A program made the translations under genes and the position numbers. Positions 52,783 to 59,731 of a stretch of DNA of 64,000 nt are shown here, piece by piece. The notes under the pieces were generated by a model. That model had not been told where the DNA came from. It worked only from the letters and a program-made list of their open reading frames with translations, and searched no databases. The DNA is from Lysinibacillus pakistanensis (GTDB taxonomy: Bacteria; Bacillota; Bacilli; Bacillales_A; Planococcaceae): positions 1,486,501-1,550,500 of the forward strand of contig NZ_CP126101.1 in NCBI RefSeq assembly GCF_030123245.1. The letters run 5' to 3'. Each line of letters starts with the position of its first letter. The stretch's first letter is position 1.

Positions 52783-53838
52783 TGATGATTTGTCAAATTA
52801 AGTGCAACAATTGCTCATTAAAAGCCTCGTTTGCAGTTTTCCAACCAAGACATTTTCTTGGTCGGTTGTTGATATAGTTTAATGATTCTGTTAGTTCTTC
52901 TGGTGATACTTTTTCGAAATTTGTTTGCTTAGGGAAGAACTCGCGAAGTAATCCATTTCCATTTTCGTTACTTCCGCGTTGCCAAGAAGAATAGGCATCC
53001 GCAAAATAAACATCAATTTTCAAGTCTTTTTCTAATACTTTATAACAGCTAAATTCTTTACCTCGGTCTGTTGTGGCTGTTTTTATAGCGCCTTTTGGTA
53101 ATTTAGAATGAAGTAGACGTACTGCTCCTTCCATTGATTGAGCTGAGCGATCCGGTATCAAAAAGCCAACATACCACCGTGTCATTCGTTCAATAAATGT
53201 TGCTACACAACCTTTTGCTTTCCCACGTCCAGATACAACTGTATCTAACTCCCAATGTCCAAAGGTTTCACGTTTACGTACTTCTTTTGGGCGTTTAGAA
53301 ATTGGTGTACCAATGTTAAATCTTCCTCTTGTTTCCCGGGGCTTTTGGCGCTTTCCTTTTTGACGGAGAACGGTTATAGGCACTTCTAAAAAACCCTCGT
53401 AAATCCAGCGATAGATGGTTTTAAAACTTAGCTGTCCTTGATACAAGCGGCCGACAATTTGTTCAGGCGACCAAGTATCCCACAACTTTTCTTGAACAGC
53501 TTCTTTTACTTCGGGTGTACATTTTGACTTGGCACCACAGTTGGATTTATTTTGGTGGTAACGTACCTGCGCTTCGTCAGCCGTACTACCGGCGTGGCGT
53601 TTTATTTCTCTGGAAATCGTAGAAGGTTGACGATTTAAGAGTTTCGCTATTTTACGAATCGGATAATCAAGTTCTAGGTATGTTTCTATTTTTACACGTT
53701 CTGATATGGTAAGATGGGTATAGCTCATAACGATTCCTCCGTTTGAATGTTTGTGTGGTAACTACATTCTACACGAGGTCGTTATGGGCTTCCTTTATAT
53801 TGACTTCTGGGTGTTGCACTTAATATTACAATCCGTCA
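52783..53838. mobile_element. IS30-family insertion sequence, complete
   Basis: Terminal inverted repeats of 27 bases lie at 52783-52809 and 53812-53838, with 22 identical positions; the inner part TTAAGTGCAACA is exact. The length of about 1056 bp and the single transposase gene fit IS30. Both flanks carry TT, a possible 2-bp target duplication. The element looks intact and potentially active. Confidence 0.8.
52793..53728 (-). CDS. IS30-family transposase
   Basis: This protein of 311 residues has an N-terminal helix-turn-helix (YPIRKIAKLLNRQPSTISRE) and a DDE catalytic core: HWELDTVVSG (first Asp), TATTDRGKEFS (second Asp), and Glu in RGSNENGNGLLREFFPK. The frame is uninterrupted. The last codons and stop lie within the left inverted repeat. 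Confidence 0.95.
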   Translation of the reverse strand: MSYTHLTISERVKIETYLELDYPIRKIAKLLNRQPSTISREIKRHAGSTADEAQVRYHQNKSNCGAKSKCTPEVKEAVQEKLWDTWSPEQIVGRLYQGQLSFKTIYRWIYEGFLEVPITVLRQKGKRQKPRETRGRFNIGTPISKRPKEVRKRETFGHWELDTVVSGRGKAKGCVATFIERMTRWYVGFLIPDRSAQSMEGAVRLLHSKLPKGAIKTATTDRGKEFSCYKVLEKDLKIDVYFADAYSSWQRGSNENGNGLLREFFPKQTNFEKVSPEELTESLNYINNRPRKCLGWKTANEAFNEQLLHLI

Positions 53839-54106: not shown

Positions 54107-55459
54107 ATGATGTACAAAAATGAGAAACAACTTTTAGATAAAGCCCGTGAAGCAATAGGAAAAACATTTAATGAAATTGACCTTCATGACCGTTTAAGTA
54201 AAGGGCAGAAAGGAGGATTTGGTCATATTATAGAAGAAAGTCATTTTGGTTATGAAATTAATAGTAATGCTGAACCGGATTTTAAAGATTTAGGAATTGA
54301 GTTGAAAGTAACGCCATTTAAGAAAAATAAAAATGGTACATTATCAGCAAAAGAGCGCCTAGTATTAAACATTATTAATTATATGGAAGAGGTACATACA
54401 GAATTTGAAACATCGAGTTTTTGGAAGAAAAATCGTAAATTACTTTTAATGTTTTATGAGTGGAAATCAGAAATAGAGCGCAAAAATTTCAAAATCATTG
54501 AAACTACTTTATATGATTATCCAGAAGAAGATTTAATTATTATTAAAAAGGACTGGGAATATATTGTTAGTAAAATTCATGCAGGGGAGGCTCATTTATT
54601 ATCTGAAGGTGATACTCAATATTTAGGTGCATGTACAAAAGGCGCGAATAAAAGCTCGGTTCGTCAGCAGCCATGTTCTGAAATTATGGCACCACAACGA
54701 GCATATTCCTTAAAACAATCATATATGACATCCATTGTTCGAGAAGTAATTACTGATGAAAAACTAACTTACTTTGCATCTGCAAATGAGCTTCGCGAAA
54801 AAACGATTAATGAGCTGTTACATGAACGCTTTGCACCATATTTAGGAATGACGCAAAGACAAATGGCAGAGCAACTTGATGTCCCATTTAATCCTGGTAA
54901 TAAGGCATTTATTGCAAAATTGATTAGTTCTCTGTTAGGCGTAAAGGGAACAAGGTTAGACAATATTGCCGAATTTGCAAAGGCAAACATTCAATTTAAA
55001 ACTATTCGATTAAAAGAAAACGGTATTCCAAAAGAGCACATGTCATTTGTGAATATCGATTTCAAAGAGATAGTTAAAGAGGATTGGGAAGAGAGCTATA
55101 TCCGAAATTATTTTTTAGAAACACAGTTATTATTTGTTGTATTTCAATTTAAGGAAGAAGAGCTTATTTTTAAAGGGATTAAGCTTTGGCATATGCCAAT
55201 GGACACAATTGAAACGAAATTATATGAGTATTGGAATGCTATCCGTAGTGTTGTTAATGAAGGTGTGCAATTTCAGAAAACAAAACGTGGTTTGAAAAAT
55301 AACTTACCTGACTCAAAATTTAACGGAGTTCTCCATGTTCGTCCAAAAGGAAGAAATGCAGCAGATAGAACAGAGTTACCTGATGGGCAATGGATTACGA
55401 AACAATGTTATTGGTTAAATGATATTTATATAAGTCAGATTTTAAAAGAAATGGGGTAA
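54107..55459 (+). CDS. Type II restriction endonuclease, Sau3AI/MutH family
   Basis: This protein of 450 residues, near the 489 of Sau3AI, has an N-terminal MutH-like nuclease domain with KGGFGHIIE followed by the catalytic D-(X)6-ExK: AEPDF (Asp58) and GIELK (Glu65, Lys67). The C-terminal half repeats the fold without a clear catalytic triad, as in Sau3AI. Family members cut at GATC and are blocked by cytosine methylation of that site. GATC specificity is inferred from the family. It is the first gene of a three-gene operon with a C5 methyltransferase. Confidence 0.88.
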   Translation: MMYKNEKQLLDKAREAIGKTFNEIDLHDRLSKGQKGGFGHIIEESHFGYEINSNAEPDFKDLGIELKVTPFKKNKNGTLSAKERLVLNIINYMEEVHTEFETSSFWKKNRKLLLMFYEWKSEIERKNFKIIETTLYDYPEEDLIIIKKDWEYIVSKIHAGEAHLLSEGDTQYLGACTKGANKSSVRQQPCSEIMAPQRAYSLKQSYMTSIVREVITDEKLTYFASANELREKTINELLHERFAPYLGMTQRQMAEQLDVPFNPGNKAFIAKLISSLLGVKGTRLDNIAEFAKANIQFKTIRLKENGIPKEHMSFVNIDFKEIVKEDWEESYIRNYFLETQLLFVVFQFKEEELIFKGIKLWHMPMDTIETKLYEYWNAIRSVVNEGVQFQKTKRGLKNNLPDSKFNGVLHVRPKGRNAADRTELPDGQWITKQCYWLNDIYISQILKEMG

Positions 55460-55463
55460 GTGT

Positions 55464-56603
55464 TTGGCTGGTTATATTTTTACATTAGATAGTTTTGATT
55501 CTTTAAATGAAATAATAAAAAACGGTGTATATAGTACCAATATAAATGTCCCTAAAAAAAATAATTGGCTGACACCGCATGAAGGTACATTTACAGATTA
55601 TTTATCAATGAAGGAAGGAGATAATGTATACTTTTTTATTGATAGAAAAATATATGGGATTGGAAAGTTAAAAAATGTTGTAGAGGATTGCAAACTTTTA
55701 AATTTCCCAAATGCTGATATCCCAATCGTAAACGATTATACCGAATTAAAAGAAGAAATGATTTTAAATAAAACATTATTTAACTTAAAAAACCGTTTTA
55801 TTTGCACTTTTGAAAATAATCCATATTTTTTTACAACTGGTGTAGATATGGATGATGTGTTAGCTTCTAATCCAAGTGCCTTTAAAATGCTGAGAGTTTT
55901 ATGGAAGCTTTCATTTATCAAAATTGATGATATTGAAAATAAAGCATTATTTGATTTTATTTTAAAAACAAACGAGTATGAATTAGCAAATCCTTATAAT
56001 ATCTTTTATACTGAGGATTTACTTCACAAGCGCATAAAATCATTATATAACAATAGTTTTAGAGTTACTTCAAAAAATATATTAGATTTAGCAGCAGATG
56101 AAGACTATATACGCCATGAAATGGCTATTGAAGCTGCAATTGTTGACAATATTAGTAATAATTCTAGTTCTAGTATATTCGGGGAATGGGATTATGTTTC
56201 ACATCAAGTAGTTGCTTCTCCATTTAAACCTGTAGATTACATGGATAAGATGGATGTTTTTGGGTATAGATACATAGCTGGTTTTTCAACAATTTCTAAA
56301 TACTTAACTATTGAAATTAAAAAAGATAGAGCGACTGAAGATGTTGTGCATCAAATTATGAAATACGTAGATTGGATTAACCAAGAATACAGTAATGATT
56401 ATGGCATGATTGAGGCATTTGTTGTAGCTAAACATTTTCCAAAAGAAGTTATTAATTTGAAAAATAAAATAGGTCGAAGAGTTTATACAAAAGGAAGGAG
56501 ACCTGCTATGACACTTGAATGGAGTAACTTAAGATTTATAAAATACCGTTATTGCCAAAGTTCTAAAAATATTATATTCGAAGAAGAAATGATTCAAACT
56601 TAA
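55464..56603 (+). CDS. Unknown restriction-associated protein: PUA/EVE-like plus PD-(D/E)XK domains
   Basis: This protein of 379 residues lies between endonuclease and methyltransferase genes. The N-terminal 75 residues (YIFTLDSF ... EGDNVYFFIDRKIYGIGKL) resemble PUA/EVE-like folds, which can read modified bases or RNA. A helical middle follows. The C-terminal part (about 210-365) looks like a NucS/DUF91-type nuclease: HEMAIEAAI (Glu219, Glu223), MDVFG (Asp264), LTIEIKKDRA (Glu284, Lys286), then VVHQIMKYVDWI. This spells D-X19-ExK. The start is TTG at 55464, five bases after the endonuclease stop, with GGGG six bases before it. It is not a control protein. It may be an accessory or modification-dependent nuclease. 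Both domain calls are by eye. Confidence 0.6.
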   Translation: MAGYIFTLDSFDSLNEIIKNGVYSTNINVPKKNNWLTPHEGTFTDYLSMKEGDNVYFFIDRKIYGIGKLKNVVEDCKLLNFPNADIPIVNDYTELKEEMILNKTLFNLKNRFICTFENNPYFFTTGVDMDDVLASNPSAFKMLRVLWKLSFIKIDDIENKALFDFILKTNEYELANPYNIFYTEDLLHKRIKSLYNNSFRVTSKNILDLAADEDYIRHEMAIEAAIVDNISNNSSSSIFGEWDYVSHQVVASPFKPVDYMDKMDVFGYRYIAGFSTISKYLTIEIKKDRATEDVVHQIMKYVDWINQEYSNDYGMIEAFVVAKHFPKEVINLKNKIGRRVYTKGRRPAMTLEWSNLRFIKYRYCQSSKNIIFEEEMIQT

Positions 56604-56672
56604 AAGTTGATCCCTTTGCAGAAATCATTTATAATAAGTTATAATTAATTTTTGCAGAAAGGATGTTTGCTA

Positions 56673-57920
56673 ATGAAAGACACTCTAAATGTAGTAGAAT
56701 TGTTTGCGGGTGTGGGTGGATTTCGATTAGGTTTAGAAAACGCAGATGCGAACCTTTTTAATACCATTTGGGCAAACCAATGGGAACCATCACGTAAGTC
56801 ACAGGATGCATTCGATTGCTATAAAAGAAACTTTGGTGGAGAGCCCAGTAATCAAGATATTGCATTGGTACCTGATAAAGTATTTCAGGAATTAGATATA
56901 GATTTATTAGTAGGTGGTTTTCCTTGTCAAGACTATTCAGTAGCTCGTTCGTTATCAGGTGAGAAGGGACTCGAAGGGAAAAAAGGTGTATTGTTTTGGG
57001 AAATTAAGCGTGTTATTGAAAATTCCCACCCAAAATATGTACTTCTTGAAAACGTCGATAGGTTATTAAAATCGCCATCTAAACAGCGAGGACGCGATTT
57101 TGCAGTTATGCTAGCGACGTTCCGTGACTTGGGGTATATTGTGGAATGGCGAGTTGTAAATGCTGCAGAATATGGAGCTGCTCAAAAACGCCGTCGTATT
57201 TTTATATTTGCTTATAAAAATACTTTAAACTTTGCAACAAAACAGCGTAAATTCAGCCCATATGAAATTGTATTTAATGAAGGGTTCTTTGCAAATACAT
57301 TTCCAGTTAAGCAAGAGCCTTATAAAAATCGAATTGCAACTTGTGAATTACCTGATGATATCATAGCAATTTCTGATGAGTTTGCATTCGGGTTTCATAC
57401 AGCTGGAATTATGTTAGAGGGAGAAATTTTCACTGCACATACAGAAGTGGACTTTCCGAAATTTAGACCACTTAAACATATTTTAATTGACGAATCCATG
57501 GTGCCTGAATCGTTTTATTTAACAGATTTACAAGCTGAAAAATTTAATTATTTACGTGGTCCAAAGAAAATAGAACGTACATCAGCAGAGGGGCATAAAT
57601 ACATTTTTTCTGAAGGTGGTATGTCTCAAACGGATGAATTAGATGGGCCAGGTCGTACTATGTTGACAAGCGAGGGTTCTATTAACAGAAGTACACATAT
57701 CGTAGAAGTAAATGGTAAAAAACGATTCCTAACACCTATAGAATGTGAACGATTAAATGGTTTTCCTGATAATTGGACAGCTGGTATGCCAAACCGTATG
57801 CGTTATTTTTGTATGGGCAATGCCCTTGTTGTGAATCTAATTACAAAAATGGGGAAAACTATTTTAGATATAGAAGTAAATGAACACAATAAATCAGAGC
57901 AAATAGAAATGTTTATATGA
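56673..57920 (+). CDS. DNA (cytosine-5) methyltransferase
   Basis: This protein of 415 residues has C5-MTase motifs in order: I ELFAGVGGFRLGL, IV GGFPCQDYS with the catalytic Cys85, VI LLENVDRLL, VIII QKRRRIFIFAY, IX TPIECERLNGFPD and X GNALVVNLI. The variable target-recognition region lies between VIII and IX (about 200-345). The ATG at 56673 follows AAAGGATG; an upstream TTG is not needed. It should protect the site cut by the Sau3AI-like enzyme, by inference producing GATm5C. Confidence 0.93.
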   Translation: MKDTLNVVELFAGVGGFRLGLENADANLFNTIWANQWEPSRKSQDAFDCYKRNFGGEPSNQDIALVPDKVFQELDIDLLVGGFPCQDYSVARSLSGEKGLEGKKGVLFWEIKRVIENSHPKYVLLENVDRLLKSPSKQRGRDFAVMLATFRDLGYIVEWRVVNAAEYGAAQKRRRIFIFAYKNTLNFATKQRKFSPYEIVFNEGFFANTFPVKQEPYKNRIATCELPDDIIAISDEFAFGFHTAGIMLEGEIFTAHTEVDFPKFRPLKHILIDESMVPESFYLTDLQAEKFNYLRGPKKIERTSAEGHKYIFSEGGMSQTDELDGPGRTMLTSEGSINRSTHIVEVNGKKRFLTPIECERLNGFPDNWTAGMPNRMRYFCMGNALVVNLITKMGKTILDIEVNEHNKSEQIEMFI

Positions 57921-58040: not shown

Positions 58041-58196
58041 TTAAATCAAAAACACCGCCACAATCGTCGTAATAACAAGACCAATCACTACAGGCAATAA
58101 ATTACGCCTTGCGAGTTCAAATGGACTTACATTACATATAGCAGCCGCAGGAATTAACGCCCAAGGAATTAATGTACCTCCACCAATAAAAGACAT
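58041..58196 (-). pseudogene. Severed C-terminus of a membrane transporter
   Basis: The minus-strand frame ending at 58041 encodes about 51 residues: MSFIGGGTLIPWALIPAAA, CNVSPFELARRN, and a final helix LLPVVIGLVITTIVAVFLI. This looks like the last two segments of an ion or organic-acid transporter. No ribosome site precedes it. Its upstream end abuts the stop codon of the serine recombinase gene, so the host gene was evidently split by integration there. The N-terminal part is not in this window. Confidence 0.6.
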
Positions 58197-58197
58197 A

Positions 58198-59625
58198 TTA
58201 TTTAGCTGCAACAATTATGATTTCTCTTGCTTGCTTACTGCTTATAAAATCATCCTTTGTATCAATTACAATTTGCTCAAATACGGTCGTCATTAATTGC
58301 TTACGTTCATAATCATCAGCATTTAACCAAAGAGTATCGATGTTGCGAATAATGGATCTGATTTCCTTATGATGCCGAGTGTCCTGCTGCTGAATATTCT
58401 TTAACTCACGTTTAATTTCTTTTTCTTTGCCCCGTAGCTTTTCGGTTTCGCGAATTAATTCATCAATATCAATAATATCATTTTCGAACATGGTTTTTTT
58501 CTTGAGTAAAAGCTTTTGTATAGAGGCTAGTTCCTGCTGCAATGAAGAGAACTGTGCTTTAGGAAAATTGGACTCGCCTTCATTACTTTTAAAATGACTA
58601 CCCACTAAGTCATCCCACTGAGCAAATACCGTTTGTACTAAATTGCTTTCTAAAATCATATGACTAGTACAGGTTTTTCCTGCTTTCTTTCCTGAACACC
58701 GGTAGTTCTTTTTCTTTCCTACTTTATGCCCTGACATTGAGTGCCCACATCTGGCACATTTTAAAATCGAAGAGAAATAGTAATTACTTGTCTCACGTTT
58801 TCCGCCAAAGGTTCTGCGTTTATCCAACAAATCCTGTAGCTCCCAGAATTCATCACGATCTATAATGCGTTCGTGATTTCCCTCAAATAGCTCCCGTTTG
58901 CGAGGGGGCTTTTTGATGTCTTTAGGATTAGAGCTGAACATTAAATAACCAGCGTATGTAGGATTATTAGCAATATCTCGCACACTGTCTACATGCCATC
59001 CTCCGCCTCTTCTTGTAGGTATTCCTTTACTAGTTAGTTGACGAGCTAGTGTGTAAAAGCCTATGGATCTAGCTAGCTTAAATATTTCCTTTACAATTTG
59101 AGCCTCTTCTTCATCTTTCACTAATTCACCATCAATGACCTTATAGCCGAAGGGAGGGGTGCCACCTTTCCAGCGTCCCAATTTCACTTTCTTTTCTAAT
59201 CCAAAGCGCACTCGTTCTGCCGTATTTTCTCGCTCCCATTGCGCAATAGCTGCCACTAGTGTGATAAACAAACGTCCTATAGCATTAGTAGTATCATAGA
59301 CTTCTGTAGCAGACTTAAATTTACATTCATATTGATCCAATTTTGCTAAGATAGTATGCAGGTCAGGCACAGAACGAGTTAATCGATCCAGTTTATACAC
59401 TAGTAAGACATCTATGCCCCCTTGCTTAATTCGATTGAGCATATTTTGGAAATGAGGTCTGTTTAAATCCTTAGCAGAATAACCATCATCGATATAGGGC
59501 TTCTCAACAATTTCCCATCCTTGTGAAACACAATAAGCTTCTAATTTCTCAATCTGGGCAGCTATTGAAAACCCATGCTTGGCCTGTTCATCTGTACTCA
59601 CCCGAACATAGATGACGCATTTCAT
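58198..59625 (-). CDS. Large serine recombinase (site-specific integrase)
   Basis: This protein of 475 residues has an N-terminal resolvase domain with catalytic Ser10 in YVRVSTDEQAKHGFS and VYKLDRLTRS. A recombinase domain follows (about 160-270), then a zinc ribbon (CARCGHSMSG ... CSGKKAGKTC) and a coiled-coil segment (about 370-430). AGGAG lies nine bases before the ATG at 59625. The 3' end abuts a truncated host gene, as expected for an integrase at the attachment site of its own element. Confidence 0.93.
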   Translation of the reverse strand: MKCVIYVRVSTDEQAKHGFSIAAQIEKLEAYCVSQGWEIVEKPYIDDGYSAKDLNRPHFQNMLNRIKQGGIDVLLVYKLDRLTRSVPDLHTILAKLDQYECKFKSATEVYDTTNAIGRLFITLVAAIAQWERENTAERVRFGLEKKVKLGRWKGGTPPFGYKVIDGELVKDEEEAQIVKEIFKLARSIGFYTLARQLTSKGIPTRRGGGWHVDSVRDIANNPTYAGYLMFSSNPKDIKKPPRKRELFEGNHERIIDRDEFWELQDLLDKRRTFGGKRETSNYYFSSILKCARCGHSMSGHKVGKKKNYRCSGKKAGKTCTSHMILESNLVQTVFAQWDDLVGSHFKSNEGESNFPKAQFSSLQQELASIQKLLLKKKTMFENDIIDIDELIRETEKLRGKEKEIKRELKNIQQQDTRHHKEIRSIIRNIDTLWLNADDYERKQLMTTVFEQIVIDTKDDFISSKQAREIIIVAAK

Positions 59626-59731
59626 CAATATTCACTCCTAATAATAAGAAAAGAGCGATACAAAGGAGCTTACTCTTTTTAATTTATATATAGCACTAAA
59701 ATTGCATATCATTCCTATAATTTTTGCTTTA

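Follow-up and report, generated by a model that had tools for sequence, protein, structure and literature searches.

The window analyzed here is a stretch of 64,000 nucleotides from Lysinibacillus pakistanensis (contig NZ_CP126101.1, positions 1,486,501 to 1,550,500), and our subject within it is the gene of a 379-residue protein, hereafter the middle gene and the middle protein, lying between the genes for a Sau3AI-family restriction endonuclease and a C5 cytosine methyltransferase (table 1). An endonuclease of this family adjoining a C5 methyltransferase of matching type marks the operon as a Sau3AI-type restriction-modification (R-M) system, and the open reading frame (ORF) between the two, already pointed out in an initial annotation of the bare sequence, is confirmed as a frame, its two neighbors being identified by family matches over cut-off. 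The endonuclease stop codon ends at 55459 and is followed by four bases, so that the distance of five bases given in that annotation holds for the TTG start, which is the fifth base after the stop, and not for the intervening bases. The choice of this start is supported by the residues M-A-G, found at the same place in all 27 aligned relatives. Compared with its copy in genome G004, the middle gene has diverged by 0.027 at nonsynonymous sites (dN) and 0.277 at synonymous sites (dS), a sign of purifying selection, and its dN and dS values resemble those of the endonuclease gene (dN 0.020, dS 0.276) and the methyltransferase gene (dN 0.016, dS 0.139). Because of this selection, and because relatives are present in 33 loci, the middle gene is not a chance ORF.

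Table 1. Features of the Sau3AI-type locus, with positions in the window
Feature	Positions	Strand	Evidence
Sau3AI-family restriction endonuclease gene, 450 aa	54107..55459	+	NF040973 568.5 bits (cut-off 300); PF02976 MutH E 3.5e-39
Middle gene: YTH/EVE-like reader plus NucS-like nuclease, 379 aa, TTG start	55464..56603	+	ORF, predicted structure, alignment of relatives
YTH/EVE (PUA-like) domain, residues 1-178 of the middle protein; Y23 invariant, residue 24 varies by partner group	55464..55997	+	
NucS/EndoMS-like PD-(D/E)XK nuclease domain, residues 205-370 of the middle protein	56076..56573	+	
D264 codon, predicted catalytic	56253..56255	+	invariant 27/27
E284-I285-K286 codons, predicted catalytic E-X-K	56313..56321	+	E284, K286 invariant 27/27; aligned to E-X-K of NucS 2vld
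Promoter-like TTGATC-N17-TATAAT, GATC inside the -35 hexamer, upstream of the methyltransferase	56607..56635	+	
C5 cytosine methyltransferase gene, start (ATG) set by comparison with relatives	56673..57920	+	PF00145 E 3.5e-72; PDLC03329 E 1.7e-182; TIGR00675 247.9 bits (cut-off 100.65)

The predicted structure of the middle protein bears out its earlier reading as a reader joined to a nuclease. Residues 1-178 match YTH/EVE (PUA-like) chains in structure comparison, giving the N-terminal domain a predicted YTH/EVE reader fold, and residues 205-370 match the NucS/EndoMS nuclease, of which only the C-terminal part is aligned; predicted structure and conserved residues together assign this half to the C-terminal PD-(D/E)XK fold of NucS/EndoMS type, with its catalytic residues. 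The annotated motif D264-X19-E284-X-K286 lies at the positions given for it, and all three residues are among the 62 columns that are invariant across the 27 aligned relatives; the nuclease half also retains E219, E223, Q297 and Y301, among others, and the reader half G21, Y23, T25 and R61, among others. In a profile alignment to NucS 2vld, residues E284, K286, Q297 and Y301 pair with E, K, Q and Y of NucS, and D264 is unpaired, falling in a stretch of differing length. By structure alignment, residue 1 of the model stands in most rows opposite residue 355 of YTHDC1, 410 of YTHDF2, 1288 of YTHDC2 and 237 of AtCPSF30. Assuming that the first 25 residues are free of gaps (the aligner prints ranges only) and that the cage tryptophans have the residue numbers we take them to have, Y23 would fall on the first cage tryptophan of each of these YTH proteins, and S24-T25 would stand opposite S378-T379 of YTHDC1, residues named in the titles of Protein Data Bank (PDB) entries among the matches listed. 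The pocket of the restriction enzyme VcaM4I is formed by P24, W82 and Y130 (PMC7897488).

Sequence searches say less. The middle protein falls below every curated cut-off (PF01939, NucS_C, 17.4 bits vs 24; NF003270, 17.2 vs 216), and weak PF01939 matches recur in 18 of 20 relatives, with a best E of 2.9e-5. Its hits in Pfam and NCBIfam, taken to E 1, include no Vsr, and weak matches to the PADLOC families PDC-S02 and PDC-S11, confined to the nuclease core, led nowhere. The N-terminal domain has no informative sequence match in PDB and Pfam, and none of 18 such domains matches Pfam YTH or EVE at E up to 10 with the HMMER filters on; a fold computed from the single sequence was uninformative (pLDDT, a per-residue confidence score, 34.8). 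The predicted fold of both halves is well supported, and the cleavage specificity is putative.

The distribution of the middle gene points to GATC methylation. Among its 33 loci, 30 have a partner of GATC type: a Sau3AI-family endonuclease in 21, a C5 methyltransferase only in three (L030, L088 and L089, of which L030 and L089 are cut by contig ends) and a Dam-type methyltransferase directly upstream in six (L016, L018, L022, L031, L046 and L047). The sequence stretch examined lacks a partner in the remaining three (L019, L025 and L028), but in the L028 genome another contig carries Sau3AI and the C5 methyltransferase, and a Dam over cut-off is encoded elsewhere in the L019 genome. These loci are not all independent, L046 and L047 belonging to one genus, L017/L020 and L021/L025 looking like near copies and L024/L026 being close. 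The gene order varies from endonuclease-middle-methyltransferase in the window to methyltransferase-endonuclease-middle (L011, L013, L015) and methyltransferase-middle-endonuclease (L024, L026, L102); the middle gene lies on the opposite strand in L014 and L056, and in L027 the other two genes are 5 to 6 kb away from it. Within 151 relatives the middle gene is present in eight genomes and Sau3AI over its cut-off in 20 (26 with any match), and all eight are among the 20 (P = 2.3e-8, with no correction for kinship). Partial matches in L036-L039 (E 9e-5 to 3e-4), which cover the nuclease core only, were left out of the counts. Since the gene occurs in Sau3AI genomes as well as in Dam-linked genomes, its link is with methylation of GATC and not with Sau3AI in particular. 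GATC systems can do without it, although it is conserved, and its coupling to them is well supported. The middle-gene frame is broken in G048 (L057) and shortened in L015, while the flanking endonuclease and methyltransferase genes match over nearly their full length, as expected of a dispensable component. Relatives of the middle gene lie on two IMG/VR contigs (L088, L089). A gene commonly borne by plasmids or phages is rejected by a tblastn search of 72,556 plasmid and 50,697 phage records, which gave no match to it at E 1e-5; the Sau3AI endonuclease was matched in 21 plasmid records.

In six loci Dam and the middle gene stand side by side. The four complete Dam proteins scanned are all over the TIGR00571 cut-off, DpnM is the nearest PDB chain for each of the two proteins compared, and on sequence grounds these partners would be expected to methylate GATC; in L031 the Dam is incomplete, a fragment where the contig ends. 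No Sau3AI over cut-off and no DpnII was found in the seven genomes having both the gene and Dam, these being the two enzyme families searched, and DpnII-family endonucleases are missing from all ten genomes searched. A Dam gene and a single nuclease gene, forming a compact pair among unrelated genes, have the anatomy of an R-M system, and for this reason we read the middle protein as a restriction nuclease. In L022 the pair apparently sits, judged by eye, within a run of amino-acid biosynthesis genes. A second DNA methyltransferase follows the middle gene in L046 and L047; that of L047 (7249-8046) is of N4/N6 type by weak family matches, and it resembles the arrangement of the two-methyltransferase DpnII loci. 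In the phylogenetic tree the Dam-linked proteins and L019 form one clade (support 85/91, below the mark of the program), nested in a group of ten rows (100/98) with Sau3AI-linked proteins of Bacteroidota and L027; from this nesting the partner seems to have changed once, from the 5-methylcytosine (m5C) to the N6-methyladenine (m6A) type. Under the stricter rule nine positions separate the partner groups, seven of them within residues 1-178, and at residue 24 one group has serine in 20 of 21 proteins, the other alanine in five of six. Because the genomes of the Dam clade have no recognized Sau3AI (over cut-off) or DpnII enzyme, the evidence suggests that the middle protein can be the nuclease of a two-gene system. 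They argue also against a dependence on the first enzyme of the operon, on whose products the middle protein had been proposed to act; that proposal is not established, nor is the alternative of a modification-dependent cutter offered beside it.

How, then, would such a protein work? We give an even chance to its being a GATC-coupled restriction nuclease gated by the YTH/EVE-like reader, the second nuclease of Sau3AI systems and probably the sole one beside Dam. The N-terminal domain would inspect a base within or close to GATC, probably in a flipped-out state, and thereby tell host-methylated from foreign DNA, and the C-terminal NucS-type PD-(D/E)XK domain would cut the DNA. In Sau3AI operons the middle protein would be an optional second nuclease; in the derived clade it would be paired with a Dam-type (m6A) methyltransferase, probably as the only restriction nuclease of the pair. 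The predicted fold of both halves, the invariant catalytic residues, the purifying selection and the link to GATC methyltransferases of two chemistries are observations; that the protein acts on DNA, that it flips a base, that GATC signals cleavage, that methylation acts in the direction stated and that phages are the target are inferences. Several observations weigh against it. A second GATC nuclease beside Sau3AI looks redundant, and since YTH/EVE folds are familiar chiefly for recognizing modified bases, they would be more at home in a modification-dependent enzyme; besides, the fold of the reader half comes from prediction, with no sequence match. Twelve of the 20 Sau3AI-bearing relatives lack the middle gene, with none nearby either, and among 398 genomes of the phylum the full-length gene occurs in four and Sau3AI in five, both together only in the genome of the window; the other three (G154, G200, G515) are Dam-linked. 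The same figures reject an obligate component of Sau3AI systems, so that the proposed survey of Sau3AI-like operons upholds an association with GATC systems but leaves the gene optional. At least four of the Dam-linked genomes (L016, L018, L022, L031) are, by their titles, metagenome-assembled, and their endonuclease may therefore be unassembled; G540 holds one weak NF040973 match of 60 bits; and more than one Dam over cut-off is present in G515, G538 and G540, so Dam may have other duties. Finally, the pattern of residue 24 reflects a single change in one Dam switch event, with one exception (L047), and is only suggestive.

The first of the rival explanations, which we consider unlikely, is a modification-dependent nuclease resembling type IV enzymes, whose reader would bind a mark absent from the host, either the other methyl mark of GATC or a phage hypermodification that blocks Sau3AI, so that the NucS-like domain cuts and complements its neighbor as DpnI does DpnII. 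The mark would have to be absent because, with hosts of two kinds, simple dependence on m5C or on m6A would turn the nuclease against one of them. Known readers of modified bases, including the restriction enzyme VcaM4I, have the fold of this reader, Y23 seems placed at a YTH cage residue, and the difference in residue 24 between the partner groups would fit a changed mark; moreover, an endonuclease that depends on methylation can live with a methyltransferase opposed to it, provided that one of them silences the other (PMC8989522). However, if the enzyme were of a general type IV kind, GATC methyltransferases should not accompany it in as many as 30 of 33 loci, and in the Dam pairs it would leave unmodified phage DNA uncut, although neither of the two GATC enzyme families searched is present to cut it. 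Sau3AI is reported to be blocked at GATC by m5C and not by m6A (PMC5608340). Since it reportedly cuts m6A-GATC, reading m6A would add little in m5C hosts, and for the same reason neither this nuclease nor the methylation-gated one simply explains a second nuclease beside Sau3AI, which is the weakest point.

Two further rivals are a repair nuclease and an auxiliary factor. Genes for T:G repair often go with C5 methyltransferases, and NucS/EndoMS, a mismatch endonuclease, is the nearest match of the nuclease half; the middle protein might repair the T:G arising from deaminated GAT-m5C, as a stand-in for Vsr, or perform other repair at methylated GATC. Within the stretches examined, Vsr genes are indeed present in six of the 33 middle-gene loci, within 154 bp of the middle gene in L014, L030 and L088, at 214 bp in L056, 2.9 kb in L013 and 4.7 kb in L021, but they are present too in four of 16 examined Sau3AI loci without it (L050, L051, L110, L112), so the middle gene does not replace Vsr. 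Deamination of m5C is irrelevant in the six loci having an m6A (Dam) partner, and the likeness to NucS is limited to the catalytic half; Vsr-like T:G repair is therefore disfavored as the main function, and repair in general is quite improbable. Rather improbable, too, is an auxiliary R-M factor that would, for example, process the ends cut by Sau3AI, restrain the endonuclease or kill cells losing the methyltransferase. The short distance at which the middle gene follows the endonuclease gene, both in the window and in several relatives (8-31 bp from one matched part to the next in 12 of 21 Sau3AI loci), speaks for it, as does the dispensability of the gene in Sau3AI relatives and its breakage in G048, but the gene is present in Dam-linked genomes without a recognized Sau3AI or DpnII enzyme and its catalytic residues are invariant.

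The middle protein may be compared with several systems already described. VcaM4I is an EVE-HNH enzyme acting on DNA with 5-methylcytosine or 5-hydroxymethylcytosine (PMC7897488), whereas the middle protein has a NucS-type PD-(D/E)XK domain and adjoins GATC methyltransferases of its host. The N-terminal domain of the middle protein appears to differ from that of NucS/EndoMS, and the middle protein is below the Pfam and NCBIfam cut-offs of that family and linked to R-M genes. YTH-McrB of Thermococcus gammatolerans is likewise a restriction enzyme in which a YTH-like domain reads methylated DNA (PMC12707154), but there the domain is fused to the McrB GTPase; TgMcrB is not among the 50 structure matches listed for the middle protein, which bears on the comparison neither way. 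The window shares the endonuclease and methyltransferase families of Sau3AI-type (GATC, m5C) systems, which are usually described as these two enzymes (PMC10059834), and adds a third, optional nuclease gene, as in eight of 20 relatives. The Dam-linked loci share the DpnM-like methyltransferase of DpnII-type systems, with the second N4/N6-type methyltransferase in L046 and L047, but differ in that the middle protein occupies the slot of the DpnII-family endonuclease. The main text of a survey of EVE/DCD domains, in the part cited, makes no mention of NucS, DUF91, Sau3AI or GATC (PMC7641849), and no description of a YTH-like plus NucS-type architecture was found in the open-licence literature searched, papers outside it not being covered. 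With its predicted base-reading and DNA-cutting halves, and with GATC methyltransferases beside its relatives, some of which have no other apparent cutter, the middle protein is probably an undescribed kind of restriction nuclease.

A broader scenario, tentative and doubtful as a whole, is that of a new enzyme class in which a YTH-like base-flipping domain reads GATC methylation and drives a NucS-type nuclease. It would have arisen as the third gene of m5C Sau3AI systems, switched once to m6A Dam, retuned its pocket at residue 24, dropped Sau3AI and, as a two-gene R-M cassette, reached Bacillota, Bacteroidota and Acidobacteriota. If true, one reader-nuclease fusion tied to one site under two methylation chemistries would offer a natural case for testing self/non-self discrimination by restriction enzymes and the way in which these enzymes swap methyl partners; a nuclease domain of mismatch repair would be placed in antiviral defense, and some orphan-looking Dam genes would gain a candidate nuclease partner.

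The three genes had been assigned to the same operon, which is borne out only in part: the middle gene lies closely behind the endonuclease, but the methyltransferase is preceded by the promoter-like TTGATC-N17-TATAAT element and may well be transcribed from a promoter of its own. In this region chance alone yields many single promoter-like matches (19 found vs 24.1 expected), and it is conservation, not the single match, that carries weight: the exact element recurs upstream of Sau3AI-type methyltransferases in 17 of 24 regions of a first set and three of 12 of a second, several start positions in this comparison being approximate, also at loci without the middle gene, and in none of four regions upstream of Dam genes. 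The GATC in the -35 box suggests, from sequence, that the methyltransferase gene may regulate itself by sensing methylation, a regulation by promoter methylation known for AhdI and LlaDII (PMC12707154). GATC is depleted in the window as a whole, with 103 sites found vs 208 expected from base composition alone.

Upstream of the operon, a transposase gene with HTH_38 and rve domains (52793-53728), which we take to be IS30-like, belongs to a segment of roughly 1 kb (52791-53837) missing from the otherwise collinear G004 locus. On the other side, homology with G004 stops at 58181 and is followed by the gene for a large serine recombinase (58198-59628, minus strand), by which a gene for a membrane protein, present in G004, is apparently disrupted.
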